DNA of 61,237 nucleotides. Origin: Acidobacteriota bacterium (GTDB taxonomy: Bacteria; Acidobacteriota; Blastocatellia; Pyrinomonadales; Pyrinomonadaceae). Of this stretch, positions 9,173 to 61,237 are shown piece by piece. Under the pieces are notes generated by a model, which saw only the letters and a list, made by a program, of their open reading frames with translations, ran no database searches and was not told where the DNA came from. Every line of letters starts with the position of its first letter. Within the stretch, counting starts at the first letter, position 1. The stretch spans positions 1-61,237 of the forward strand of contig RFGC01000036.1 in assembly GCA_003697135.1 (NCBI GenBank), given 5' to 3'. Position numbers and translations under genes: made by a program.

Positions 9173-11695
9173 TTATTTGTATAGCAAAAACTGTGCCCGA
9201 ATTTTTTTGAATTGTTCTAATTCCTCTTGCCAAGACTTTTCGATTTCTTCTGGCGATTCAGCAAGCCTAACTTTCTCGAAAACGAAGTTGTTAGCAAGCA
9301 AGCGATTGTAGTTTTCGATTTTCCAATCCGAAGGAAAGAGCTTTCGCAAAGCAATTGCAATTTCAATGCCTGTGCGCACAGGTCGGAAGACTTGGCGGTT
9401 TGTGATTATGATGTTAACACCATTACATCTTTCGCCCTTGAAAACAGAAGATTTTGGGACGAATTGAACAGGGACAAAACGCACTCCAGGAATGTTTCTC
9501 TGATTAAGGTAAGATGCGAGCCTTTGTGCATCAATCCAAGGAGCACCGATAACCTCGAAAGGTGTGTCGGTGCCCCGCCCAACCGAAAGATTAGTTGTTT
9601 CGAGCAAGCCGATTCCCGGATAAAGCGTTGCTTCTGTTAAACTGCGCATGTTCGGTGAAGGATTTATCCACGTTTGCGTCGTTTCATCAAACCACATCGA
9701 ACGGCTCCAACCTTGCATTTTGATAACCTTCAGGATCACGGGAATTTTCCTTTGCTCCTTGAACATCTGCGCAAGCTCTCCGACGGTCATTCCATGTCTT
9801 ACAGGCAAAACGTGCGGAACAACGAACGAAAGTTTATCGGGATCGGCTAGTGGCCCTTCTACATCAACTCCGTTAATTGGATTCGGTCTATCAAGCACAA
9901 CAACAGTTTTTCCCAACTTCCCTGCTTCTTCCATGACATAAAGAAGCGTCGTTATGTAGGTGTAAAATCGCGTTCCTATGTCTTGAATATCAAAAACAAT
10001 AGCGTCCAAGTCTTTCAATTGTTCAGGTTTGGGACGGCGCGTTTCGCTGTAGAGTGAATAAATAGGTAAGCCAGTTTTTTCGTCAACAGTATCAGCAATT
10101 TTTTCCTGATCCAATTCACCGCGGATGCCGTGCTCTGGCGAGAAAAGCGCTACGAGTTTCAGGTTTTTCGCTTCAAACAAAACGTCTATAGTGCTTTTCC
10201 CTTTAAGGTTTCGCCCTGTGTGATTTGTTACAAGCCCGATTCTCATGCCTTCAAGCGATCTGAAATCTTCTTTCTCCAAAACGTCTATCCCGTTCAGCAC
10301 TACTGATTGGCTTTTCCCATCAGAATCTCGCCCGGCAGTTTGGCTTACCGTTCTAGTGTTAACCTGACTTTTGAAACTCTCAAGCTGTGCAGATACAGCC
10401 GTGAAATAATCAGCCTCAGCCCTTTTGATAGCTTCAAGAGTTAGGTCTTCAATAGCTGAAGCTACAATTGTTGAGATTTTTCCGCGAAGAGTTGTTACAT
10501 CGCCTTTACCGTCTGGATGCACGCGATTGGAAAGGAAAATAACAAAAGTTTTGCTTAACGGATCAATCCAAATACTCGTTCCCGTAAAACCAGTATGCCC
10601 AAACGAACCCAAAGGGAAAAAATCGCCACGATTTGATGAATAGCCAGTGTTCATGTCCCAGCCGAGCGCCCTTGTTGCACCTGACTCTGAAACCACTTGA
10701 GGCTGTATCCACTTCGCAATTGTAGCACTACTTAAAATTCGCTTTCCGTCAAATTTTCCGCCATCTAGAATCATCTGACAAAACCGAGCCAGATCATCAG
10801 CAGTCGAGAAAAGCCCTGCATGCCCCGCAACTCCGCCCATTCGGGAAGCTGTTGGATCGTGAACAACTCCACGCAGGATTTTATTACCAGATTCTTCATC
10901 ACCTTCAAATTTTGAACCGAGATAGCTTTGCTGTCCCTTAAAACTTTCGGTCGGAGCAATTCGATTCAATTTGGGATTGTCTTCACCATTATAAAAAAAC
11001 TGGGAATCTTTCATTCCCAAAGGCTCAAAGACGTTTTCCCGCACAAACTCTTCAAAGCAGTTTCTCTTGCAACCTCCAGCCTTGAGTTTTTCTTTTTCGA
11101 CTACTCTTCTAACAATTTCCCCAAGCACTATGAAACCGATGTCTGAATACACAAAACGCGTTCCCGGCTCAAAACGAAGCGGCTCTTCGTAAAGCTGCTG
11201 TAGCATTGCATCATAACCTGTCCATTTCTTCGATAGATCAAAATCAGGAGCGTATCCAGAAGTATGTGTTAAGAGTTGCCTGATTGTAACACGCTTAGCT
11301 CTTTCGTCTTTTATTTCCGGGATGAATTGCCCAATAGTGTCGTTAAGCCGAATCTTGCCTCTTTCAAGCAGAATCATTATCGAAGTAGCGGTTGCGACAG
11401 GTTTAGTAAGCGATGCAACATCAAAAATCGTGTCAACTGTCATTCCCTCTACTTTCGGCACTAGAGCACGATTTCCGAAAGCCTTGCGATAAACAACTTT
11501 CCCATTTCTGCCTACCAAAACAACCGCACCGGGAAGTTTTTTGTTCGTGATTTCCGCCTGCACGACTTCATCAATCCGCTTGAGCTTCTCCGACGAAACG
11601 CCCACTTCTTCGGCAAATTTGACTTCAGTTAAAGACTGGGCAAAAATTTCGCCGAAGAAAAATGCAAGTAAAATCAGAAGCAATCGAAAAAACAT
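9173..11695 (-). CDS. Secreted fusion: beta-lactamase-fold serine hydrolase plus NamZ (DUF1343) exo-beta-N-acetylmuramidase
   Basis: About 840 residues with a signal peptide (MFFRLLLILLAFFFGEIFAQ). Domain 1 (about 25-400) is a class C beta-lactamase/S12-like serine hydrolase: nucleophile motif SLTK (S-x-x-K), YSD at the Y-x-N position and a C-terminal HTG triad. Domain 2 (about 465-840) is DUF1343, the fold of NamZ (GH171), which removes MurNAc from non-reducing ends of murein fragments; it has the conserved GLVTNHTG, FSPEHGIRG and FDIQDIGTRFYTYI segments. Family knowledge makes it a periplasmic or secreted murein-digesting enzyme; the role of domain 1 (amidase, esterase or peptidase) is unproven. 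It follows the LysR gene closely, so the two are co-transcribed. GTG 11710 is an alternative start. Confidence 0.88.
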   Translation of the reverse strand: MFFRLLLILLAFFFGEIFAQSLTEVKFAEEVGVSSEKLKRIDEVVQAEITNKKLPGAVVLVGRNGKVVYRKAFGNRALVPKVEGMTVDTIFDVASLTKPVATATSIMILLERGKIRLNDTIGQFIPEIKDERAKRVTIRQLLTHTSGYAPDFDLSKKWTGYDAMLQQLYEEPLRFEPGTRFVYSDIGFIVLGEIVRRVVEKEKLKAGGCKRNCFEEFVRENVFEPLGMKDSQFFYNGEDNPKLNRIAPTESFKGQQSYLGSKFEGDEESGNKILRGVVHDPTASRMGGVAGHAGLFSTADDLARFCQMILDGGKFDGKRILSSATIAKWIQPQVVSESGATRALGWDMNTGYSSNRGDFFPLGSFGHTGFTGTSIWIDPLSKTFVIFLSNRVHPDGKGDVTTLRGKISTIVASAIEDLTLEAIKRAEADYFTAVSAQLESFKSQVNTRTVSQTAGRDSDGKSQSVVLNGIDVLEKEDFRSLEGMRIGLVTNHTGRNLKGKSTIDVLFEAKNLKLVALFSPEHGIRGELDQEKIADTVDEKTGLPIYSLYSETRRPKPEQLKDLDAIVFDIQDIGTRFYTYITTLLYVMEEAGKLGKTVVVLDRPNPINGVDVEGPLADPDKLSFVVPHVLPVRHGMTVGELAQMFKEQRKIPVILKVIKMQGWSRSMWFDETTQTWINPSPNMRSLTEATLYPGIGLLETTNLSVGRGTDTPFEVIGAPWIDAQRLASYLNQRNIPGVRFVPVQFVPKSSVFKGERCNGVNIIITNRQVFRPVRTGIEIAIALRKLFPSDWKIENYNRLLANNFVFEKVRLAESPEEIEKSWQEELEQFKKIRAQFLLYK

Positions 11696-11712
11696 CAAAA
11701 ACAGTATCACCT

Positions 11713-12636
11713 TTATTCTCTTTCAAAAGCTACAAGCTCTTTTTCTTTCTCTACAAAAACCCTTTTGCAAAGCTCTTTGAATTCATTTGCTATCGGCGAA
11801 GAGTAACTGCCACGAAGTTGCGCCAGCCCAAGTTCCCAATTCATTTCAGAGCCTTCGATAAATAAAGTGACAAGTCGGCCTTTTGCAACCTCTTTTGCAA
11901 CGCTTTTGAGACCAGCAATTCCCAATCCCATATTTTTTTCCACCATGCGATTTATGGCAGTTTGCCTCGAAAGTTCCATAATTACATTTGGCTTGACTCC
12001 AACCTGCATGAAGAATTCATCAATCATTCGGCGCGTGTTTCCGCCTTTTTCACCGAGTATCAATGGCTCATTTGCCAATTCCGCCGCACTTATGACACGC
12101 CTTTTCGCAAACGGATGTAAAGGACTTGCAATAGCAACTATCTCATCACTATATAAAAGTTCAGTTTGAATATTCGGATTTTCTATTGGTAACGAAACGA
12201 AAGCCACATCTATCTCACCGTTAAGTAACTTTTCTGTCAAAACTTCACTGGTTCCTGAAAAAACCGATATGCTAGCCTGCGGAAATTTTTTCTTCAACTC
12301 CTGCAAAATCTCTGGCAAATCTTCTGTAGCAAAGGAAGATGATGAAGAACCTATACGAAGCCTTCCATATTCAGCACCGGCAAGCTCTGCAAGCTCTTCA
12401 AGCGCCGCATCATGCTCACGCAAGATTTTCCTCGCTCTTTCAAGCAGTCTTTCTCCTGCTTCAGTCAAGATCGCTCGGCGCGGCGTGCGCGTGAAAAGCG
12501 GCAAACCAACTTCTTCTTCAAGTTGCCGAATCTGCATAGAAATCGCCGCTTGCGTTACATTGACTCTTCTCGCACCAGCCGTAAAGGTCTTCGTTTCCGC
12601 TATCGCTACAAACGCCCTAAGTTGCCTTATTTCCAT
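11713..12636 (-). CDS. LysR-family transcriptional regulator
   Basis: 307 residues. The N-terminal winged helix-turn-helix (1-60: LRAFVAIAETKTFTAGARR, then VTQAAISMQIRQLEEEVG) is textbook LysR; a periplasmic-binding-like effector domain (about 90-295) follows. It is encoded just upstream of the NamZ fusion in the same direction and divergent from the sugar kinase and murQ, the usual arrangement for a LysR regulator of both units. The effector is likely a murein-derived sugar such as MurNAc or its phosphate (inference). Confidence 0.92.
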   Translation of the reverse strand: MEIRQLRAFVAIAETKTFTAGARRVNVTQAAISMQIRQLEEEVGLPLFTRTPRRAILTEAGERLLERARKILREHDAALEELAELAGAEYGRLRIGSSSSSFATEDLPEILQELKKKFPQASISVFSGTSEVLTEKLLNGEIDVAFVSLPIENPNIQTELLYSDEIVAIASPLHPFAKRRVISAAELANEPLILGEKGGNTRRMIDEFFMQVGVKPNVIMELSRQTAINRMVEKNMGLGIAGLKSVAKEVAKGRLVTLFIEGSEMNWELGLAQLRGSYSSPIANEFKELCKRVFVEKEKELVAFERE

Positions 12637-12655
12637 AAAAACTTATTCTTTTTGC

Positions 12656-12760
12656 TTAACCAAATAAACCACAAATGTCAAGAAAAATCAATCAGCAATC
12701 AGCAGAAATTATCAATTCAATAAGATGTTTTAGTTTTAATTATATGTCAAGTTTGGTTAA
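12656..12760. promoter_or_regulatory. Candidate LysR operator region in the divergent lysR-kinase intergenic
   Basis: The inverted pair TTAACCAAA (12656-12664) and TTTGGTTAA (12752-12760) lies at the two ends of the intergenic region, each close to one start codon. The octamer ATGTCAAG also occurs twice (12675-12682 and 12744-12751), the second copy touching the right arm. The symmetry suits one regulator controlling both directions. No promoter hexamers could be assigned with confidence. Confidence 0.4.
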
Positions 12761-12777
12761 AATAAAATTAAGTGTTG

Positions 12778-13785
12778 ATGGATACTCAAAAAAGCCCCTG
12801 GAAAAAATCAAAGGAGTTTTTAAGTGAGCACAATCTCTATCTAGGTGTTGACGGTGGTGGCACTAAAACTCAAGTTGCAATAATAAACGGTAAGAAAAAG
12901 GTTATCGGAGAAGCTTTTTCAGGGGTTTCAAATCCGCTCAGGATAGGCATAGAGAAAGCAGTAAATAACATTTTTCTAGCGATAGACAGAGCTTGCGACG
13001 AGGCAGGTAGAAGTCGAAGTGATATTGTTTCGATTGAATGCGGCTTAGCAGGTGTCAGAAGAGAAGATTTAAGACAAACAATCCGTAAGTTGATAATAGA
13101 AAGATTTCGCATAAAAACAGTTGAAGTATTGACAGACGCAGAGATTGCATTATACGGAACAACTTTAGGCAAGGAAGGTTTAGTGGTGATAGCTGGGACA
13201 GGCTCTGTTTGCATTGGACAAAATGCAAAAGGCGAGAAATTCACCGCAGGTGGTTGGGGACCTCTTGCAGGTGACGAAGGTGGCGGTGCAGGCATCGCCC
13301 GCAGAGCCTTGCAAGCAATCGCAAAAGCTTCTGACGGGCGCGGGAAACCAACAGCTCTGAGCAAGCTTGCGGTGGATTACTTCCGTGCTGGCAAATTAGA
13401 AGACTTATCCGTTGCTATTTATGCTCCACACATAGACAATACAAAGATAGCAGGCTTTGCAAAATGCGTTATCGAAACGGCAAAAGCAGGTGATGAAGTG
13501 GCTTTGGAACTACTAGATGAAGCCGGGCGAGAACTGGGAATTGCAGCAAATGCCGTGATTCGGAATCTGAAACTTCAAAAAAGAAAGTTTCCCATAGGAC
13601 TTGTCGGCGGTATTTTCCATGCTGGAGAACTAATCGTAAAACCGTTTCTGAGAACGGTTCACAAAGTAGCGCCTAAAGCCTACATCGTCGAACCAAAATT
13701 TTCACCTGCTGTAGCGGCCGCTTTAATGGCTTTCGAGAATTTCAAAAAATATGTCACTTCCAATAACGGAACAAGAAAATCCTAA
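12778..13785 (+). CDS. BadF/BadG-type ATPase: N-acetylglucosamine or N-acetylmuramic acid kinase (MurK/NagK-like)
   Basis: Actin-fold kinase of the BadF/BadG/BcrA/BcrD family, about 335 residues. The first phosphate loop is LGVDGGGTKTQ (about 22-32), the second VVIAGTGSVCIG near 140, and the GGWGPLAGDEGGGAGIA stretch near 165 is typical of GlcNAc kinases in this family. Next to murQ, the likely reaction is 6-phosphorylation of MurNAc and/or GlcNAc in the cytoplasm, as for Clostridium MurK. The ORF overlaps murQ by 35 bp, so expression is coupled. ATG 12778 is chosen; GTG 12772 is in frame and no clear Shine-Dalgarno decides between them. Confidence 0.85.
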   Translation: MDTQKSPWKKSKEFLSEHNLYLGVDGGGTKTQVAIINGKKKVIGEAFSGVSNPLRIGIEKAVNNIFLAIDRACDEAGRSRSDIVSIECGLAGVRREDLRQTIRKLIIERFRIKTVEVLTDAEIALYGTTLGKEGLVVIAGTGSVCIGQNAKGEKFTAGGWGPLAGDEGGGAGIARRALQAIAKASDGRGKPTALSKLAVDYFRAGKLEDLSVAIYAPHIDNTKIAGFAKCVIETAKAGDEVALELLDEAGRELGIAANAVIRNLKLQKRKFPIGLVGGIFHAGELIVKPFLRTVHKVAPKAYIVEPKFSPAVAAALMAFENFKKYVTSNNGTRKS

Positions 13786-14671
13786 AACGGCAAACATAGA
13801 TAAAGTTTCGACCTTGGAAGCCGTGCGTTTAATCAATCAGGAAGATGGACGCGTGGCTGAAGCTGTCTCAAAAGTTTTGCCCGAGATAGCTATGGCGATT
13901 GACAAAATTGTCGAAAGACTCAAAAAAGGCGGAAGATTGTTCTATGTTGGAACTGGAACGAGTGGAAGATTAGGAGTTTTAGACGCGAGCGAAATACCGC
14001 CAACCTATGGTGTTTCACCTGATTTGATTCAGGGAGTTATCGCAGGCGGCTATGAAGCGCTCTACAAAGCAACAGAAGCCTCAGAAGATGATTTCGACGC
14101 TGGAGCAGAAGACCTAAAAAAGCGCGGCATCACTTCACAAGATGCAGTAGTTGGTATCGCTGCTTCGGGAAGAACACCTTACACAATCGGCGCAGTCGAA
14201 TATGCACGCAGGCTTGGTTGTTTTACTGCATGCATAACCTGCGTTCCCGACTCTCCAATAACCAAAGTTGCCGAAGTCTCGATTGTCCCAATTGTAGGTC
14301 CCGAAGTCATAGCTGGTTCAACCAGAATGAAGGCGGGAACGGCACAAAAGATGATTCTTAACATGATTTCGACCGTCTCGATGATTCGTTTAGGATACGT
14401 CAAAGGCAATCGAATGACAAACGTTCAACCGAAAAATACAAAGCTAAAAGAGCGCTCCTTGAGAATCTTGATGGCAGAAACTGGACTTGAAAGAGAAAGA
14501 GCGATCGAAGTAATGAACAGTGCCTATGGCGACTTGAGAGTAGCTTTGGTTATGCAAAAAGCAAATGTAAACTTTGAGCAAGCTAAAAATGCTCTCGAAA
14601 AAACTAATTTTGTTATCAAAGAAGCAATTAAAATCCTTCAAAGCAAGGGCAATCCTAACGAATCTCCTTGA
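13751..14671 (+). CDS. murQ: N-acetylmuramic acid 6-phosphate etherase MurQ
   Basis: SIS-domain lyase that cleaves the lactyl ether of MurNAc-6-phosphate, giving GlcNAc-6-phosphate and D-lactate. The 306-residue protein has the sugar-isomerase phosphate loop GTGTSGRLGVLDASEIPPT (about 73-91), a second loop VGIAASGRTPYT (about 135-146), and the conserved VGPEVIAGSTRMKAGTAQK motif (about 180-198). All are strong MurQ signatures. The start lies 35 bp inside the end of the kinase gene. The product joins amino-sugar metabolism via NagA/NagB, which are not in the window. Confidence 0.96.
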   Translation: MSLPITEQENPKTANIDKVSTLEAVRLINQEDGRVAEAVSKVLPEIAMAIDKIVERLKKGGRLFYVGTGTSGRLGVLDASEIPPTYGVSPDLIQGVIAGGYEALYKATEASEDDFDAGAEDLKKRGITSQDAVVGIAASGRTPYTIGAVEYARRLGCFTACITCVPDSPITKVAEVSIVPIVGPEVIAGSTRMKAGTAQKMILNMISTVSMIRLGYVKGNRMTNVQPKNTKLKERSLRILMAETGLERERAIEVMNSAYGDLRVALVMQKANVNFEQAKNALEKTNFVIKEAIKILQSKGNPNESP

Positions 14672-43314: not shown

Positions 43315-44304
43315 CTACAGTCTGTATATGCCTCCAAATTTTCTTATCTCCTCTCCTGTCTCTATATCCCAGAGCCTGAGGGTGCTATCCTCATTTCCAG
43401 ATAATGCATACTTGCCATCTGGGGAAATGACTACGGAGCGAACTTGACCTGTATTTCCCTTGAATGTCCTCAACTCCCTGCCTGTCTCTATATCCCAGAG
43501 TTTGAGGGTGCTATCATAGCTTCCAGATAATGCATACCTGCCATCTGGAGAAAAGGTTACGGAGTAAACCCAATCTTCATGACCCTCAAATGTCCTTATC
43601 TCTTTGCCTGTTTTTATATCCCAGAGCTTGACAGCCTTATCTGCACTTCCGGACAACGCATACTTACCATCTGGAGAAAAAGCTACCGAATGGACCTCAT
43701 TTATATGCCATCCAACTGTCCTTATCTCCCTGCCTGTCTTTATATCCCAGAGCCTGAGGGTGCTATCCCCACTTCCAGATAATGCATATCTACCATCCGG
43801 AGAAATAGCTACAGAGTAAACTCTCATTCCATGCCCCTTGAACGTTCTCATCAGCCTTCCTGTCTTTATATCCCAAAGCTTAAGGGTGTTATCCTCACTT
43901 CCAGATAATGCATACCTACCATCTGGGGAAATGGCTACGGAGAGGACCCAATTTGTATGTCCCTTAAATGTCCTTATCATCTTTCCTGTCTCTATATCCC
44001 ACAGCTTGAGAGTTTTGTCATAGCTTCCGGATAACGCATACTTGCCATCTGAAGAAATAGCTACAGAGTAAACCCAATCTCCATGCCCCTCAAATGTCCT
44101 TATCTCTTTGCCTGTTTTTATATCCCAGAGCTTGAGAGTGCTATCATAACTTCCAGATAATGCATACTTGCCATCTGGGGAAATAGCTACAGAGTTAACC
44201 GAGTTCGTATGCCCTAGCTGCACAAACTCAGACTTTGCCTGTGAAAAGATATGGCTACCAGAAAGCAGGGTAATCGCCAAAACACTGAAAACTATACTTT
44301 TCAT
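43315..44304 (-). CDS. Exported WD40-repeat beta-propeller protein (seven blades)
   Basis: About 329 residues. A signal peptide (MKSIVFSVLAITLLSGSHIFS) is followed by seven near-identical 42-residue WD40 repeats of the form GH-x(4)-V-x-SVAISPDGKYALSGS-x-D-x-TLKLWDIKTG, enough for one closed propeller. The high similarity among blades points to recent internal amplification. The ORF ends in a short GGIYRL where an eighth blade starts and decays. ATG 44304 has a strong GGAGG upstream. Partner unknown; likely periplasmic scaffold. Confidence 0.88.
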   Translation of the reverse strand: MKSIVFSVLAITLLSGSHIFSQAKSEFVQLGHTNSVNSVAISPDGKYALSGSYDSTLKLWDIKTGKEIRTFEGHGDWVYSVAISSDGKYALSGSYDKTLKLWDIETGKMIRTFKGHTNWVLSVAISPDGRYALSGSEDNTLKLWDIKTGRLMRTFKGHGMRVYSVAISPDGRYALSGSGDSTLRLWDIKTGREIRTVGWHINEVHSVAFSPDGKYALSGSADKAVKLWDIKTGKEIRTFEGHEDWVYSVTFSPDGRYALSGSYDSTLKLWDIETGRELRTFKGNTGQVRSVVISPDGKYALSGNEDSTLRLWDIETGEEIRKFGGIYRL

Positions 44305-44343
44305 TCTGCACCTCCAGAATTTACTTTCACGACTCACAGAGCC

Positions 44344-48632: not shown

Positions 48633-49916
48633 ATGAACCTGAGCTATAGAGAGCTATTGAAAAGCAATGAAAACTTCCGTTTACTTTTCCTTGGGCAACT
48701 CGTCTCTGAACTTGGAAATTGGTTTAACTACATTGCAGGACTTGGCTTAATTAGAGTAGTTTCAGGAGCTTCGCCCGAAGCGGCAGGAATTTTGCTTTTG
48801 TGTAGAACCTTACCATGGGCACTTCTGATGCCCTTTGCAGGGACTTGCGCCGACCTATTTTCACGCCGAACAATAATGCTCATAACTGATATTTTACGCG
48901 CTTTTCTAGCACTAGTTTTTCTTTTTGTTGATTCACATGAAGACTTATGGATTGCTTACACAGGTTCTCTACTTCTTTCAGGTGCATCAGCATTTTTCGA
49001 CGGTGCCAAAAATGCCGCTGTTCCGAACCTTTCAGGCAAAGAAGGTCTGCTTTCTGCCACAGCCTTAATGTTTTCGTCTAGATTTCTGTTTATGGCTATT
49101 GGTGCGGCACTAGGCGGTGTCACTTCAGCTTTTTTTGGGTATGAAGTTGCTTTCGTAATCAATTCTGTCTCGTTTTTAGTTTCAGCCGCTTCAATTCTTC
49201 TGATTCCGGAAAATGCAATGCATGAAAATAAAGTGACAGCTTCCTATTCACCAAAACAAACTCACCGTCAAACTAATTCGTTTTTCGACGAACTCGCCGA
49301 AGGTTTTCGTTATACGCTTGCCAATCCTTTTGCTTTGACTATTCTTTTGATGAACATAATTTGGGCTATGGGCGGTGGTGCGACCTTTTTGGTTTTTGAA
49401 GGTCTGGCGGTGCAAGTCTTTTCAGCACAAGGCAAAAACACCGATACGGTTGTATCGTTCTTGATGACCGCAAACGGCATAGGTTTGACAATCGGAATGC
49501 TTATCGCTCATCGTATTGGCTCCTATGTGGAATCGAGAAAGATAGAGATAAGCTTTATAGGATGGGCACTTGTTGCGCATGGCATTTTCTTCGCTTTGGC
49601 AGGTCTTACGAATTTCCTTCCTTTAGCGGCTTTCCTTGTGATGCTCTCGCGAGCTATTGTCGGAGTCGAATATGCCGTTCAAGAAACAATGTTTCAAAGG
49701 TCCTTGCCTGATTACATTCGCGGGCGCATCTCAACGCTTGACAGAGGTGCCGAAGTTACTGTTTTCAGCTTGGCTAGTTATCTGGCAGGCGTTTCGTTAA
49801 ACTTCATTTCCGCTCCTTTTTTGGCGATTCTTGCAGGATTTTTTACCAGCATCTCAGGTGTTTTCTGGTTCGTGAGAATGAAAAACCAAGAGATCAAAGC
49901 ACTGCGTTACTCTTAA
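48633..49916 (+). CDS. MFS transporter (EntS-like exporter group)
   Basis: 427 residues with about 12 hydrophobic segments. The first loop LGQLVSELGNWFNYIAGLGL and the motif-A-like loop FAGTCADLFSRRTIMLITD fit the MFS_3/enterobactin-exporter-like subgroup. Likely exports small molecules or siderophore-like compounds; substrate unknown. Follows the propeller gene by 67 bp. The next gene on this strand starts 460 bp later. Confidence 0.88.
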   Translation: MNLSYRELLKSNENFRLLFLGQLVSELGNWFNYIAGLGLIRVVSGASPEAAGILLLCRTLPWALLMPFAGTCADLFSRRTIMLITDILRAFLALVFLFVDSHEDLWIAYTGSLLLSGASAFFDGAKNAAVPNLSGKEGLLSATALMFSSRFLFMAIGAALGGVTSAFFGYEVAFVINSVSFLVSAASILLIPENAMHENKVTASYSPKQTHRQTNSFFDELAEGFRYTLANPFALTILLMNIIWAMGGGATFLVFEGLAVQVFSAQGKNTDTVVSFLMTANGIGLTIGMLIAHRIGSYVESRKIEISFIGWALVAHGIFFALAGLTNFLPLAAFLVMLSRAIVGVEYAVQETMFQRSLPDYIRGRISTLDRGAEVTVFSLASYLAGVSLNFISAPFLAILAGFFTSISGVFWFVRMKNQEIKALRYS

Positions 49917-50075
49917 AAAAACACAATCAGTTTGTCTTTCAACTCTGTATTCCTCTCAACCTCGTTTAGGCACTTTGTCACTTCATCTAAAATCAACCAA
50001 ATTCGCTCAGAGACTTTCTCATAGAAGACTCGCTCAAAAACATTAAACAAAGTTCGACATACCTTCACCTAAAAA

Positions 50076-50243
50076 CGTTATCAGACGCAAAAATCGCTTT
50101 GAAGTGACATGTGATCGAAGTTCTTGCGTTACAGGTTGAAAGAAAAAACCAGAAAACAACATAAAATCCGACAACGTTATCAGACGCGTTACCTTTTCAA
50201 ATCTCAAGTTATTTTTGTTGATTTACCATCCGTTATCAGACGC
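50076..50243. repeat. Three copies of the 13-mer CGTTATCAGACGC in the gap before the ECF sigma gene
   Basis: Identical copies at 50076-50088, 50175-50187 and 50231-50243, all in plus orientation, with unrelated flanks. The ends GCGT/ACGC are partly self-complementary when the preceding base is G. Five more copies occur at 57264-57426 and I saw none elsewhere. The remaining 49917-50376 gap shows no ORF, RNA or clear promoter that I could identify. Confidence 0.85.
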
Positions 50244-50376
50244 ATATCTAAAGCAATCTCGAATTCAGAATTTTGATTTTCAGGCATGTGTAACTATTTT
50301 TATTCGCTAATTGTCTATTCGTTTTGAAAGCGAGTGTTCGGAAGATTGAAATTTTGGCTTTTCTTAGAGGGCGAAA

Positions 50377-51033
50377 GTGAATATCATCGTAGCTGAAAGC
50401 AGTAAGATTAAGGACAAAGCAAAGGAGCAGTTTTTGAATTACGAGGAGCTTTCCGATGCTGAGCTGGTAGAAATGAGTTGTAATGGCGATGAATACGCTT
50501 TCGCAGAGATTGTTCGCCGATACAGTCCAAGAGTTTTTTTGTTTGTAGGTAAATTTTTTCGTCAACATAGCGTAATTGAAGAGATCGCTCAGGACATTTT
50601 CTTGCGTATTTATGTGCAACTTAGAACCTTCGCAAATCGAGGTTCTTTTGAAGGCTGGCTAACGAGAATAACTGTAAATACTTGCATCAATCAGCTACGA
50701 TCAACTAAAAGAGAAACAGAGCTAACCTTTTCAGCCTTAACTGACGAAGAAGCCGACTGGCTTGAAAGAAAGCTAAATAACTTTGCAACAAATCACTCGT
50801 CTGACGAAGATAGAATTGTTGCATCGAACCTTGTGAATCGAGTTTTGGAAGCGATGTCTGCTGATGATAGAGCGGTTTTAACCTTGATTGATGCCGAAGG
50901 ATACTCGGTTCGAGAAGTGGCAGAGATGATGGGCTGGAAAGAATCGAAAGTTAAAACACAAGCCTTTCGAGCTAGACGCAGAATGCGTCAAGCTATCGAA
51001 AAACTCATGAAGAAAGAAGGGAAACAAAAATGA
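50377..51033 (+). CDS. ECF-type RNA polymerase sigma factor (RpoE-like)
   Basis: 218 residues. Sigma-2 region about 50-110 (VFLFVGKFFRQHSVIEEIAQDIFLRIY, shown here in pieces: EEIAQDIFLRIY and FEGWLTRITVNTCINQLRS) and sigma-4 about 150-205 (GYSVREVAEMMGWKESKVKT, then FRARRRMRQAI). Its gene overlaps the anti-sigma gene by 4 bp, the usual ECF pair. Start GTG 50377 has GAGGGCG upstream; TTG 50434 has an equally good AAGGAG, so the N-terminus is open. Confidence 0.92.
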   Translation: MNIIVAESSKIKDKAKEQFLNYEELSDAELVEMSCNGDEYAFAEIVRRYSPRVFLFVGKFFRQHSVIEEIAQDIFLRIYVQLRTFANRGSFEGWLTRITVNTCINQLRSTKRETELTFSALTDEEADWLERKLNNFATNHSSDEDRIVASNLVNRVLEAMSADDRAVLTLIDAEGYSVREVAEMMGWKESKVKTQAFRARRRMRQAIEKLMKKEGKQK

Positions 51034-55193: not shown

Positions 55194-57095
55194 TCATCGA
55201 ACTTTGTAAACCCGATAAGCTCCAACCTGGGCAATTAAAGGAAACTTTTGAAAATAATCTTCGTTGATTGTTGATAGATTCGCATATTCTTCAGGCGAGA
55301 TCATCACGTAATCAATTTTATATTTGGCAATCAGAGCATCTGCCGCTGCGCCGCCTTTATAAATTTTTTCAACATCCTTTTCGCGTGCCTCATAATCAAT
55401 GCCGTAGGAATGAAGATGTCCAGTGTATCGCATCAACGAGCGTCTTCCAGATAAAACAACAGCGGAATTGTAAGTTGGAGCATTTAAGAAAAGCGCGTCG
55501 GGTTCGGTCTTTTGCTTTATCATTTCCGCTATTGAAACTGCATCTTTGCTGAAAACATCATAGTTTATCTGCTCTGATGCGGTTCGCCAAACGTCTAGTG
55601 CTCCTGCAAGCGTCAAGGAAATCATACAAACGAAAGCTATCAACTTCATTGAAAGTCTTCCAGATTCAAATATTCTCGCCAAAAGCCATGCTACGAAAGG
55701 CAATGAACCAGTAAACCAGTAAATCAAAACCTTTATGTTGTCCCATTCCCAAGGTGCTAGTTTTATCATGTTCGCAATCAAAAACCATAATGCAAACGGA
55801 ACGTAGAAAATTAGCTTCTTCATATCTTTTTTCTTCGCCGTAAGAAACAGAGAAATTAAAAGCAGGGGAATGAAAATCCCTAAATTTACAAACCAGAAAA
55901 CGAAGAAGTTTTCATCGCCTTTATCCCATCCAAAGTGCCAACCGACGAAGTTCTTTGTGTTAACCGCGCTCCCACTCATCAAAAAGACAAGTTGCGGGAT
56001 TGCAATCAGAGAAACTGCCAACCCAAACAGAATCCATTCTTTCCATCTTTTAAGTCCAAACCAAAAAAGCACGGCGCAAACCAAAAATAGAACTAGCAAA
56101 CTGTGAACATGAATCATTGCCAGTGTTCCGGCTATCAAACCAAAAAAGATCGCCGTCCTGTGTGCAAATTTTTCATCTTTCTCAGAAGAAAATAATCGCC
56201 AAAGATACGTTAAGATACCCAAAGTTAAAGGAAATCCGAAAAGCAAGCTTCTTTGAGTTATGAAAAGCGTTGTAAGCGCATTTCCCCACCGAAGCCCCTC
56301 GTTGCGGATCGTGTAATCTTTCTGAAGGTTCCACACAAATTCTGTAAGGCTTCTACCATCTTGCCAGTAGTCTTTGAAAAATTCCAGAAAGCCCAATCCT
56401 CCACAAAACAGCAAAATCAAGATTGCAAACTTCCCTGCAAGCCGATTATCAGTTAGTTTGAAAACGAAATAATCGAGCAATAACACAAGTGACAAAATAA
56501 GAAAAAGATTTTGAATCAATATGGTTTCCACAAGCCCGTTTCCAAGTTTCATCAAGCAAGCCGTTACGAAATCAACCATAAACGGGTAGGTCAAGACTGT
56601 GCCTGCAAATGAAGGATTTTCCGGTGGAAAATTGTTTCCGTCGGTGAAAGAATAGATTATCCCTAAATGAAGCGGCAAGTCTCCGAGATTATGCGCCGCA
56701 CCTGTAAAGATACCTTGATTGGTTTGAAAAACTGCACGCCTGAAGAAAAAATACATTAAAATCATCAAGAAGCCGTAAAACAAAATGTTCGAGAAACTTT
56801 TTAACTCGCTGTTTTCTCTGAATTCCTTGCGGAAAATCTGCAGTGCGCTCTCCCGTGACGGCAAAATCAAAGGCAGAAATAAAATGAATAATCCGAAGGC
56901 TATAAGTCCACCGTAAACCGTAAGTGACGATAAGCCAAAAAGATGAGCCATTAAAAAAACTGTAAATGAAAATATAACAGTTCCAACTATATGCCCAAAC
57001 GCTAGCTTGAAAACTAAATCTTCATCCCTCAAAAAAAATGAAACAATTAAAAATCCTCCAATTGTCAACAAAAGCAAGGTGAATAGAGCAACCAT
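55194..57095 (-). CDS. Polytopic GT-C-like membrane protein, family unknown
   Basis: 633 residues, about 14 hydrophobic segments. Conserved-looking loop GDLPLHLGIIYSF after a membrane segment near residue 138 and ENPSFAGTVLTYPFMVDF near 160 resemble the large acceptor-binding loops of GT-C proteins. No exact family recognised. Ends 1 bp before the Agl23-like gene, so the pair is likely one operon building a cell-surface glycan. Confidence 0.7.
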   Translation of the reverse strand: MVALFTLLLLTIGGFLIVSFFLRDEDLVFKLAFGHIVGTVIFSFTVFLMAHLFGLSSLTVYGGLIAFGLFILFLPLILPSRESALQIFRKEFRENSELKSFSNILFYGFLMILMYFFFRRAVFQTNQGIFTGAAHNLGDLPLHLGIIYSFTDGNNFPPENPSFAGTVLTYPFMVDFVTACLMKLGNGLVETILIQNLFLILSLVLLLDYFVFKLTDNRLAGKFAILILLFCGGLGFLEFFKDYWQDGRSLTEFVWNLQKDYTIRNEGLRWGNALTTLFITQRSLLFGFPLTLGILTYLWRLFSSEKDEKFAHRTAIFFGLIAGTLAMIHVHSLLVLFLVCAVLFWFGLKRWKEWILFGLAVSLIAIPQLVFLMSGSAVNTKNFVGWHFGWDKGDENFFVFWFVNLGIFIPLLLISLFLTAKKKDMKKLIFYVPFALWFLIANMIKLAPWEWDNIKVLIYWFTGSLPFVAWLLARIFESGRLSMKLIAFVCMISLTLAGALDVWRTASEQINYDVFSKDAVSIAEMIKQKTEPDALFLNAPTYNSAVVLSGRRSLMRYTGHLHSYGIDYEAREKDVEKIYKGGAAADALIAKYKIDYVMISPEEYANLSTINEDYFQKFPLIAQVGAYRVYKVR

Positions 57096-57263
57096 AAGCT
57101 AACAGCCTTAAGCAATAAAGATTGTCAAAAAATGCCTTGTTTCGCAAGAAACAAAATCTTCCAACACTGAAACTCTTTTCAACTTTGCGTATCTTTGTCC
57201 ATAATCTAGAAAAAAACTCACTTGACCTGAACCGATCAAGCCTGAAACAAAATCAACCAAAAG

Positions 57264-57426
57264 CGTTATCAGACGCAGTGTAGTTAAAACTAAATCGTTA
57301 TCAGACGCAACCAACGCAACCGAATTAGAACTGAAACAAAAGCAAGCCGAATCTATCGTTATCAGACTCACAATTCAGAGCATTATCAAACGCGAAAGCA
57401 TATAGAACCTTAACGTTATCAGACGC
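57264..57426. repeat. Five copies, two degenerate, of the CGTTATCAGACGC 13-mer upstream of the GT-C gene
   Basis: Perfect copies at 57264-57276, 57296-57308 and 57414-57426; one-base variant CGTTATCAGACTC at 57357-57369; two-base variant CATTATCAAACGC at 57381-57393. All lie on the plus strand, irregularly spaced (24-61 bp), between nfi and the GT-C gene. The rest of the 57096-57449 gap shows no other feature. Confidence 0.85.
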
Positions 57427-57449
57427 AATTTGAAGCTAGGTTTTATCTT

Positions 57450-58109
57450 CTACGTTGGAGATTTTTTATCTCTGAAAGAAGCGAATCTATCGGCTAATCT
57501 TATCGGTTCAGGTAGTTTTGTTTTTACAGAGCATTTCAAAGTGAGTTCGATTGCTGTTTTTAAGCTGATTTTATGGCCTACGGAAACATACACGGGTTGA
57601 ACATCATCTTTTGTTCTCAAAGCGACGCCTATCTGTTCGCCTTTATGGATAAGCGCCGCAAATTCTCCGCGTTTGGTTCCCAGATTTTCAAAACTACCAA
57701 CGAGTATTGACTTTGCCACACCTATGGTTGGTTTTTCAGTCAAAAGCCCTATGTGACAAGCTACGCCAAATCTTCTTGGATGTGCAATTCCCTGCCCGTC
57801 GCAAAATATCAAATCAGGCTTGTTTTGAAGTTTCTTGAATGCCTCCATGGCAACCGGAGTTTCCCTAAACGAAAGAAGCCCAGGAATGTAAGGAAAATTA
57901 ACTGGTAAGGTTGCCTCAGCTACTTCGATAAGCTCAAGACTTTGAAAATCCAAAACCACTACAACCGCATGACCTTTTCCTTGAACATACCCAAGATCAA
58001 CACCAGCAACCGTTTTTATAGGTCCCTCAAAGTCATCCTCGCAAATAATCTTTCTTGCCAACTCTTTCTGCAAAAGAATGGCTTCTTTTGGTGATACGTT
58101 CCAATTCAC
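57450..58109 (-). CDS. nfi: Endonuclease V (deoxyinosine 3'-endonuclease)
   Basis: Cuts DNA one base 3' of deoxyinosine and other deaminated bases. 219 residues. VAGVDLGYVQGKGHAVVVV holds the first metal Asp; YIPGLLSFRETPVAMEAFKKL, the DGQGIAHPRRFGVACHIGLL loop and RTKDDVQPVYVSVGHKISL follow, all Nfi signatures. Length fits. Together with UvrC and the ATL protein, a modest repair theme. Confidence 0.94.
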   Translation of the reverse strand: MNWNVSPKEAILLQKELARKIICEDDFEGPIKTVAGVDLGYVQGKGHAVVVVLDFQSLELIEVAEATLPVNFPYIPGLLSFRETPVAMEAFKKLQNKPDLIFCDGQGIAHPRRFGVACHIGLLTEKPTIGVAKSILVGSFENLGTKRGEFAALIHKGEQIGVALRTKDDVQPVYVSVGHKISLKTAIELTLKCSVKTKLPEPIRLADRFASFRDKKSPT

Positions 58110-58774: not shown

Positions 58775-61237
58775 ATGAAAAAGAGACAACAAATCAAACA
58801 GATTCTATGGAAATCTCTTTTCTTAGTTTTGTCCGTTTGGAAGACTCAAAAGGATAAAACCACAAAGAAGATTTTCAAGGAAAGTAAACAGACTGAAATC
58901 AGACATGAAAAACATAATGGTTGTATGTGGCGTGCAGTGCGCACAATGAGCGTTGTGTTGTTGTGCGTGTGCGGGCTGGAAATATCTATATTTGCGCAGT
59001 CGGCATCCGACGGCTTCAATCCGAATGCCAATGATTGGGTCAATGCGCTTGCGCTGCAGTCTGATGGGAAGGTTCTAATTGGCGGGTGGTTTACACAAGT
59101 CAGTGGGCAGTCACGCAACCGCATCGCCCGCCTGAACTCTGACGGAACGCTTGATATGAGCTTCAACCCGAACGCTAACAACCCTGTCTATGCGATTGCA
59201 GTTCAGTCAGATGGGAAAATTTTGGTTGGCGGCTATTTCACAAGCGTTGGTGGACAGACACGCAACTACATTGCCCGCCTGAATCCAGATGGGACGCTCG
59301 ACACAAGTTTTAATCCGAGTGCCAATAACTATATCTATGCGCTTGCAGTGCAATCTGACGGGAAGATTGTGGTTGGTGGTCAGTTCACGCAAATCGGTGG
59401 ACAGCCGCGTAACCGTATTGCTCGCCTGAATTCGGACGGAACGCTCGACACAAGCTTCAACCCAGGCGCTGGCGGTATTGTTTATGCGCTTGCAGTGCAA
59501 TTTGACGGTAAGATTTTGGTTGGCGGCGGCGGACAGATGCTTGCAGCTATTGCCCGTTTGAACCCCGATGGAACGTTCGACACAAGCTTTAACCCGGGCG
59601 CTAACAACAATGTCTATGCAATTACAGTGCAATCAGATGGGAAGATTTTGGTTGGGGGAGACTTTTCATTCATCGGTGGACAAACGCGCAACCGTGTTGC
59701 TCGTTTGAACCCTGACGGAACGGCTGACACAAGCTTCGACCCAAATGCCAACGGCACCGCATACGGGTTTGCGATTCAGTCAGATGGGAAGATTTTAGTT
59801 AGCGGCGCATTCACACAAGTCAGTGGACAAACACGCACCGGTATTGCCCGTTTAAACACGAACGGGGTACTGGACACGAACTTCAACCCGAACGCTAATA
59901 ACACTGTCTATAAACTCGCGGTGCAGCCAGACGGGAAGATCGTGGTTGGAGGCTTTTTTACAGGCATTGGCGGACAACCGCGCAACCGTGTTGCTCGTTT
60001 GAACTCTGATGGGATAGCCGATACAAACTTCGACCCAAATGCCAACAACTGGGTCTATGCGCTCGCATCACAGCCAGATGGTAAGATTTTGGTAGGCGGG
60101 ACTTTCACACAAATTGGCGGACAGACGCGCAACCGTATTGCCCGCCTGAACTCGGACGGAACGCTCGACGCAAGCTTTAACCCAAACGCCAATGGCAATG
60201 TTCGCGCGCTTGTGGTGCAACCAGATGGGAAAATTGTAGTTGGCGGTGAATTCACACAAATCAATGGGCAGACGCGCGGAGCTATCGCTCGCTTGAATCC
60301 TGATGGGACACTCGACACAAGCTTCAATCCGGGCGCTAACAACCTTGTCTATGGGCTTGCGTTACAGTCGGACGGGAAAATTCTGGTTGGTGGCACATTC
60401 ACAAGCATCGGCGGACAGACGCGCAATCGTATTGCGCGCTTAAATCCTGATGGGACGCTCGACGCAAGCTTCAATCCGAACGCCAACAGTGCCGTTGAGG
60501 TAATTGCGTTGCAGCCGGACGGTAAGATTTTGGTTGGTGGTGCCTTCACATTCATCGGCGGACAGGTGCGCAGAGCCGCTGCCCGCTTGAACTCTGACGG
60601 GACACTCGACACGACTTTTACTGATCCGAACGGCGTTATCTCTATCGAGGTGCTTGCGTTGCAACCGGACGGGAAAATTGTGGTCGGCGGTGGATTTACA
60701 CAAATCGGCGGACAGATACGCAACCGTCTTGCCCGTTTGAACTCGGATGGGACGCTGGATACAAGCTTCGACCCAAACGCTGACGGCTTTGTCTATGCGC
60801 TTGCGTTGCAGTCTGACGGCAAGATTGTGGTCGGTGGCGCATTCACAAGCATCGGCGGACAGACGCGCAACTTCATTGCTCGCTTGAACGTGGATGGAAC
60901 AGTTGACACAAGCTTCAATCCGAACGCCAACGATCAGGTTTTTGCACTTGCGTTACAATCGGACGGAAAGATTGTGGTTGGTGGTCGGTTCACGCAAATC
61001 GGTGGACAGGTGCGTAGCCGTATTGCGCGGCTGACAAACGACACTATTGCTTCGAGTTTGTTGAATGGGTCGCTTTATGTGGTAAGACCTATTCATCCGT
61101 TTGCTTGTAAGAAGACATGTGTGTTTAGGGTTTTTGCGCCTTCAGTCGTGCTTGTTCGTAGAGGTTCTGCTCCTATGTTTAGTCGTGTAGTTTTTGAGCT
61201 TTCGACTGATGGAGGAGCGACTTACTCAACTCTTGGA
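58775..61237 (+). CDS. Delta-60 repeat protein, secreted, runs past the window
   Basis: Open to the right edge (821 codons). An unusual basic N-terminal leader (about 1-50) precedes a signal-like segment (TMSVVLLCVCGLEISIFAQ). Fourteen repeats of about 49 residues follow, each of the form DGKILVGGxFTQIGGQ, then RNRIARLNSDGTLDTSF and NPNANN; the fourth is internally shortened. After repeat 14 a different domain begins. A strong Shine-Dalgarno (GAGGAGG) fits ATG 58775; ATG 58925 is a shorter option. Visibly G+C-richer than neighbours. Likely extracellular; role unknown. Confidence 0.85.
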   Translation, partial: MKKRQQIKQILWKSLFLVLSVWKTQKDKTTKKIFKESKQTEIRHEKHNGCMWRAVRTMSVVLLCVCGLEISIFAQSASDGFNPNANDWVNALALQSDGKVLIGGWFTQVSGQSRNRIARLNSDGTLDMSFNPNANNPVYAIAVQSDGKILVGGYFTSVGGQTRNYIARLNPDGTLDTSFNPSANNYIYALAVQSDGKIVVGGQFTQIGGQPRNRIARLNSDGTLDTSFNPGAGGIVYALAVQFDGKILVGGGGQMLAAIARLNPDGTFDTSFNPGANNNVYAITVQSDGKILVGGDFSFIGGQTRNRVARLNPDGTADTSFDPNANGTAYGFAIQSDGKILVSGAFTQVSGQTRTGIARLNTNGVLDTNFNPNANNTVYKLAVQPDGKIVVGGFFTGIGGQPRNRVARLNSDGIADTNFDPNANNWVYALASQPDGKILVGGTFTQIGGQTRNRIARLNSDGTLDASFNPNANGNVRALVVQPDGKIVVGGEFTQINGQTRGAIARLNPDGTLDTSFNPGANNLVYGLALQSDGKILVGGTFTSIGGQTRNRIARLNPDGTLDASFNPNANSAVEVIALQPDGKILVGGAFTFIGGQVRRAAARLNSDGTLDTTFTDPNGVISIEVLALQPDGKIVVGGGFTQIGGQIRNRLARLNSDGTLDTSFDPNADGFVYALALQSDGKIVVGGAFTSIGGQTRNFIARLNVDGTVDTSFNPNANDQVFALALQSDGKIVVGGRFTQIGGQVRSRIARLTNDTIASSLLNGSLYVVRPIHPFACKKTCVFRVFAPSVVLVRRGSAPMFSRVVFELSTDGGATYSTLG

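Follow-up and report, generated by a model that had tools for sequence, protein, structure and literature searches.

The stretch of DNA analyzed here (the window) comprises 61,237 nucleotides of an Acidobacteriota bacterium of the family Pyrinomonadaceae (contig RFGC01000036.1 of assembly GCA_003697135.1) and corresponds to contig C13 of a draft genome of 2,794,560 bases in 47 contigs, hereafter the home genome. It carries two intergenic islands of a 13-base word, CGTTATCAGACGC, whose copies are described below as half-sites of the Xer recombination site dif. Island 1 occupies the intergenic region 49917..50376, as delimited by the open reading frame (ORF) list and Pfam, between an MFS transporter ORF (48633-49916, + strand) and an ECF-type sigma factor ORF (50377-51033, +). 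It contains three exact copies, each given here with the base that follows it: CGTTATCAGACGC+A at 50076..50089 (13-mer at 50076-50088), CGTTATCAGACGC+G at 50175..50188 (13-mer at 50175-50187) and CGTTATCAGACGC+A at 50231..50244 (13-mer at 50231-50243). Island 2, in the intergenic region 57096..57449 delimited in the same way, is bordered by an ORF at 55194-57095 (-), for which no Pfam match was obtained at E 1e-5, and by an endonuclease V ORF (57450-58109, -). Its first, second and fifth copies (57264..57277, 57296..57309 and 57414..57427) are exact, the third is a variant with one mismatch (CGTTATCAGACTC+A, 57357..57370) and the fourth is degenerate with two mismatches (CATTATCAAACGC+G, 57381..57394). 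All of these copies lie on the + strand.

An earlier note on this DNA had reported eight copies of the 13-mer, which could not be due to chance, with three perfect copies in one orientation and with unrelated flanks upstream of the sigma factor gene. The three copies were found exactly as described; the count of eight holds for matches, only six of which are exact. Eight matches at up to two mismatches were reached in none of 100 shuffles (shuffle mean 0.88), and the flanks outside the core are dissimilar between copies. When both strands of the whole home genome were searched, 70 exact copies were counted (27 forward, 43 reverse) on 11 of the 47 contigs, whereas the reversed control of the 13-mer had 0 copies in 2.79 Mb. 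Enrichment is thus genome-wide and does not reflect a local duplication, so that neither of the refuting conditions named in the earlier note applies. Its restriction to two islands, also stated in the earlier note, applies to the window itself, but in the fetched parts of the 11 site-bearing contigs 40 islands with one to five copies each were recognized.

Counts of the last 11 bases of the 13-mer, its core, were made on 854,295 bases of the 11 site-bearing contigs (C14, C20 and C43 in part). The core, TTATCAGACGC, which is called the arm in the following, is present in 80 copies against 0.4 expected. CG precedes it in 70 of the 80 copies, and the next base is A or G in every one of them; since this purine is invariably present, the real repeat unit is 14 bases long, CGTTATCAGACGCR, i.e., CG-TTATCAGACGC-R. 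Column counts of 88 copies (dif and copies with one mismatch among them) gave an asymmetric consensus and, beyond the 14-mer, only a weak base bias (A/T ahead of the core, C avoided directly ahead of it). Spacing of neighboring copies showed no periodicity above the chosen threshold, and word counts near the sites, made in search of a second element, mostly recovered adjacent copies of the motif itself, with short CCTA-like words weakly enriched. The earlier note had proposed to look for an intergenic bias: when genes were called by a simple program on 481,232 bases of the home genome, 78 of the 88 copies proved to be intergenic, while about 10% of the sequence is noncoding.

The bias to replichore, likewise suggested there, is strict. 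Exact copies lie on one strand per contig, with the exception of C19, where copies with up to one mismatch are on the - strand up to 105,192, which is dif itself, and on the + strand from 116,056 (exact copies: last - at 93,932, first + at 116,056). The cumulative GC skew of C19 rises and then falls with a peak at about 115 kb, which places the replication terminus there. On the other ten contigs the strand of the copies corresponds to the GC-skew sign in the analyzed part; the skew of C4 is weak overall (0.003) and positive in the site-bearing end. With C19 split by hand at 110 kb (a split at 115 kb is equivalent, since no arm copy lies between 105,192 and 116,056), this strand rule fits 80 of 80 arm copies, so that, on either side of the terminus, GCGTCTGATAACG on the leading strand is directed at the terminus. 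The skew of the window is -0.04 and its copies are all on the + strand, as the rule predicts. A site inside an ORF at C19:118,556 recurs in the congener G001 within an inverted region, its direction relative to the terminus being kept.

The identity of the word became apparent from the copy on C19 at 105,191, which carries ACATAA plus six bases upstream and so forms TTTACATAATATCTGTTATCAGACGCA, the home genome's own dif. Single copies in relatives likewise have ACATAA and six bases upstream. The strict pattern ACATAA-N6-TTATCAGACGCR matches 50 of the 119 family genomes; 49 of them have a single match and one (G074) has three, and TA precedes the arm in 50 of these 52 matches. In G074, the three dif-like full sites are on contigs C27, C122 and C176; contamination or extra replicons are possible. 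Read in reverse, the site is GCGTCTGATAA-N6-TTATGTAA, with GCGTCTGATAA being the reverse complement of TTATCAGACGC, which is the architecture of dif. The XerD arm of E. coli dif, a site whose sequence is found in published papers, starts with TTATGT, and the second arm TTATGTAA resembles this conserved arm and matches its start. According to Kono et al. (PMC3025954), the XerC arm is variable and the XerD arm conserved in all phyla, and the position of dif is described there as correlated with the GC-skew shift. By this architecture and by the arm conservation, TTATCAGACGC is one arm of the dif of this lineage, most likely that of XerC, and the repeated word is an XerC-type arm without an XerD arm.

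A search with three mismatches, covering 65 of the 69 family genomes without a strict match and seven genomes of other families, gave a dif match in 34 of the 65, and 24 of these 34 carry the arm as TTATCGGACGC. The reversed control had one match in two of the 72 genomes, so that a few of the relaxed matches may be due to chance. In a scan of genome contigs with the dif pattern, the 80 stretches listed of 96 include hits in unrelated phyla, which we take as chance.

Although they share with dif the complete 11-base XerC-type arm, including one position that varies between A and G in both, the repeated copies are half-sites rather than degenerate difs. A dif site consists of two 11-bp arms around a 6-bp center and is present once per chromosome near the GC-skew shift. 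The flanking columns of the 88 copies do not spell the ACATAA arm, and no XerD arm at the proper spacing is visible in these column counts. At the place in front of the arm where the center of a dif would start, the half-sites mostly have CG (70 of 80) and dif mostly TA (50 of 52), and the half-sites are multi-copy: 70 exact copies stand beside the separate dif at C19:105,191.

The earlier note had also advised a look at relatives. Half-sites of the form CGTTATCRGACGCR were found in 94 of the 162 genomes of the class searched, namely in 85 of 119 within the Pyrinomonadaceae and in nine of 43 outside. Five were counted in G022, the cultured Pyrinomonas methylaliphatogenes K22. In 31 relatives with positions of dif and half-sites on the same contig among the matches listed (ten of the difs come from the search with three mismatches), 80 of 83 half-sites are oriented away from dif. 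This tally does not include G000, G074, G001, G051 (another family) or genomes in which dif and half-sites are on separate contigs, and G023 entered it with only those sites that have A at the variable position. The distance of the 83 sites from dif has a median of 12 kb (range 0.8-171 kb); 57 are located on the XerC-arm side and 26 on the other. G001 has a weak dif candidate at C21:95,854, and its six listed sites obey the polarity rule. A concentration of sites at the terminus is therefore seen in the relatives, by this median distance, and in the home genome, where sites occupy 11 of 47 contigs and flip near the skew peak. In four genera, each represented by one genome, the flip occurs between two divergent arms at a distance of 1.4-1.7 kb (G060 C1:1554221-1555872; G023 C5:87461-89171; G027 C31:66696-68108; G017 C183:34254-35891). 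These pairs lie in or beside a beta-propeller-like gene (weak Pfam match, below the cut-off), near a GNAT acetyltransferase gene or genes read by eye as ssb or tsaB, and such a pair possibly represents a midpoint of the terminus distinct from dif.

Half-sites are also found inside a gene. In genus g9 and others, they lie in a gene with the LptF_LptG domain (Pfam, two proteins scanned), where one site encodes RLIT and others encode ASDN in a variable linker, and they are retained at the same positions across genera. RLIT is present in 13 of 15 aligned lptFG genes, and 11 of these 13 use exactly CGT CTG ATA ACG, for which the product of codon frequencies is 0.0028. Among those 11 genes, with a mean protein identity of 52%, an invariant codon is seen at only two of 151 further invariant residues, Met and Trp not counted; the 11 had been picked for carrying the site, so that 11 of 13 is the fair figure. 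This codon identity shows selection on the DNA at this site. The word is retained in intergenic DNA and, within genes, in two reading frames, so that what is conserved seems to be the DNA word itself and not an RNA or a peptide. The lptFG gene of the home genome is without both sites. In one lptFG gene of G079 (C4:110000-129999; ORF at 11427-14106, -), the linker contains five ASDN peptides, each encoded by an in-frame half-site, and this five-copy linker is the coding counterpart of the intergenic islands.

The half-sites thus probably mark the terminus region for machines of chromosome folding or segregation. Of the roles considered in the earlier note, that of a chromosome-organizing site is supported by the polar copies around the terminus and by the match to the dif arm. 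That of a binding site for an unknown protein is retained in its first half: binding is likely, but the obvious candidate for it is a known recombinase, XerC or XerD. The home genome has only two Phage_integrase matches, one XerC-like and one XerD, the latter scoring above the XerD cut-off (340.4 vs. 329.6 bits). It also encodes ScpB and one FtsK gamma domain. XerC is here assigned to TTATCAGACGC by homology. The strict polarity points to a partner coming invariably from the side of the origin, such as SMC, FtsK or the replisome.

In the mechanism that we favor, XerC, perhaps together with XerD, would bind the half-sites without recombining them, and the bound half-sites would serve as directional landmarks within the terminus domain. 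SMC-ScpAB, loaded near the origin and traveling towards the terminus, would invariably run into one and the same side of the bound recombinase, where it would be unloaded much like by XerD in Bacillus subtilis. XerD is described as unloading SMC in B. subtilis (PMC12322038, PMC8357415, PMC8242196, PMC11898615), and site-specific unloading at the terminus has been described for bacterial SMC complexes with MatP for MukBEF and XerD in B. subtilis. A second job of Xer proteins at the terminus is, according to these descriptions, a known principle. That the half-sites are landing sites of XerC or XerCD that signal the terminus to a motor coming from the origin, with SMC unloading as the favored function, is in our view about evenly balanced between right and wrong. 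A broader proposal is put forward more tentatively, as it is rather more doubtful: the Pyrinomonadaceae may mark the terminus with an orientation-dependent array of XerC half-sites, on which the reused recombinase would block or unload SMC (or FtsK) in a direction-dependent way, with the code kept across genera even in coding sequence and expanded about tenfold in the species of the window relative to its congener.

Several observations weigh against this reading. The unloader of B. subtilis is XerD, whereas the arm found here looks like that of XerC, and the XerC candidate, although best matched by XerC, scores just under the cut-off (331.6 vs. 335.15). Every other family genome searched has 0-9 half-sites as compared to 71 in the home genome. 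Two genera, g3 (0 of 7) and g10 (0 of 16), are without CGTTATCRGACGCR half-sites, yet dif was found in members of both, so that the function would be dispensable or differently coded there; this absence could represent a clade-wise loss or a changed code. Three of the 83 sites break the polarity with dif as the center; all three lie 8.7-8.9 kb past dif on the XerD side, which places the actual flip point slightly away from dif. Most of the relatives examined have a weak GC skew around dif, and polarity in relatives is therefore judged from dif alone. Finally, a hand tally of the A/G position gave 34 A and 17 G half-sites in genomes with a G-type dif vs. 54 A and 9 G with an A-type dif, and this covariation within genomes is weak (p 0.024, kinship not corrected).

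Control of FtsK is the explanation that competes best, although we regard it as unlikely. Here, the half-sites would guide, slow or stop septal FtsK on its way to dif, either directly, as a long version of the FtsK-orienting polar sequences (KOPS), or via bound XerC. The FtsK gamma domain encoded in the home genome and the proximity of the relatives' sites to dif are in line with this. A KOPS-like density over the chromosome arms was not found in family genomes other than the home genome, where 0-9 sites are too few to guide a translocase across megabases, which makes a direct orientation of FtsK unlikely. Short KOPS octamers are tolerated in genes, while 78 of the 88 copies in the home genome avoid them, and a direct KOPS role would leave the identity with the dif arm unexplained. 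What is shared with KOPS, and with the SpoIIIE recognition sequences (SRS), is the reversal of polarity near dif, as described for KOPS (PMC13342612); KOPS is given as an 8-mer, GGGNAGGG, whereas the half-site is a 14-mer identical to the dif arm.

A recruitment of topoisomerase IV by XerC at the half-sites, for the decatenation of sister chromosomes throughout the terminus, is rather improbable. In E. coli, cleavage by topoisomerase IV at dif is described as being abolished by deletion of the XerC box, with a weak effect of XerD-box deletion, and XerC as stimulating the binding of the enzyme (PMC4865107), which would suit the XerC-type arm seen here. The same source describes the influence of XerC as specific to dif, and recruitment offers no obvious reason for the strict polarity.

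Less probable again is a polar fork trap of the Tus-Ter kind, in which a protein bound to the 14-mer would allow replication forks to enter the terminus and not to leave it. Ter arrays are polar, are present in multiple copies and flip near dif, and the half-sites resemble them in all three respects. Ter sites are not known to occur in multi-copy islands like those of up to five copies reported here, and the identity of the 14-mer with the dif arm would have no explanation. No match to Tus (PF05472) was obtained in the home genome, the E. coli control being detected and no search having been made for RTP.

That the copies are relics of Xer-dependent integration (phages or plasmids of the type of integrative mobile elements exploiting Xer, IMEX) or a short mobile repeat is very improbable. 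In phages using Xer, according to published descriptions, the XerC side can be preserved while the XerD side decays (PMC5357621, PMC3025954). Relics would hardly be expected to show unrelated flanks, strict polarity and lptFG positions conserved across genera, and a search of viral_contigs for phage half-site arrays gave no pair of exact copies 10-40 bases apart. A repeat resembling repetitive extragenic palindromes or miniature inverted-repeat transposable elements (REP/MITE-like), and with it the suggestion of the earlier note that the word is the core of a mobile repeat, is very unlikely, as there is no strong conservation or shared sequence past the 14-mer.

A transcription-factor operator or promoter element, e.g., for the ECF sigma gene, is hardly credible even though 78 of 88 copies are intergenic, because copy orientation tracks the replichore (80 of 80) with flanking genes on either strand, exact copies lie inside lptFG in relatives, and the adjacency to the sigma factor gene, mentioned in the earlier note, is incidental given that island 2 lies between two minus-strand ORFs.

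Among known systems, one close to the proposed binding of XerC at half-sites is that of B. subtilis, in which XerD-binding sites with an Xer arm outside dif reportedly unload SMC at the terminus, as Karaboja and colleagues are said to have found in 2021. By the descriptions, both cases have sites with an Xer arm outside dif, in the terminus region of a bacterium with SMC-ScpAB, and the Acidobacteriota half-sites contain the Xer arm of the species' own dif (TTATCAGACGC, XerC-type by homology). The half-sites differ in having an XerC-type arm, in strict polarity, in islands of up to five copies and in belonging to another phylum. With matS/MatP they share the marking of a terminus domain; matS is palindromic, while the half-site is asymmetric and directional. 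The logic of an oriented array is comparable to that of oriented CTCF sites. In a search of titles and abstracts, no description of XerC half-site arrays was found.

This lineage constitutes a natural experiment, since Xer-arm sites outside dif can be counted, are polar, occur in frame in genes and range in number from 0 to 71. With such variation, it can be tested directly whether Xer recombinases serve as directional landmarks and whether the number of sites matters. In addition, terminus position and replichore can be read off easily from the half-sites in draft genomes of the family.

Two further ORFs of the window were noted for their repeats. A long ORF on the + strand (58775-61237), which extends beyond the window end, has degenerate repeats of the type SDGKILVGG...RIARLNSDGTLD, and a 340-amino-acid ORF at 43315-44337 (-) contains repeats that are WD40-like by eye.
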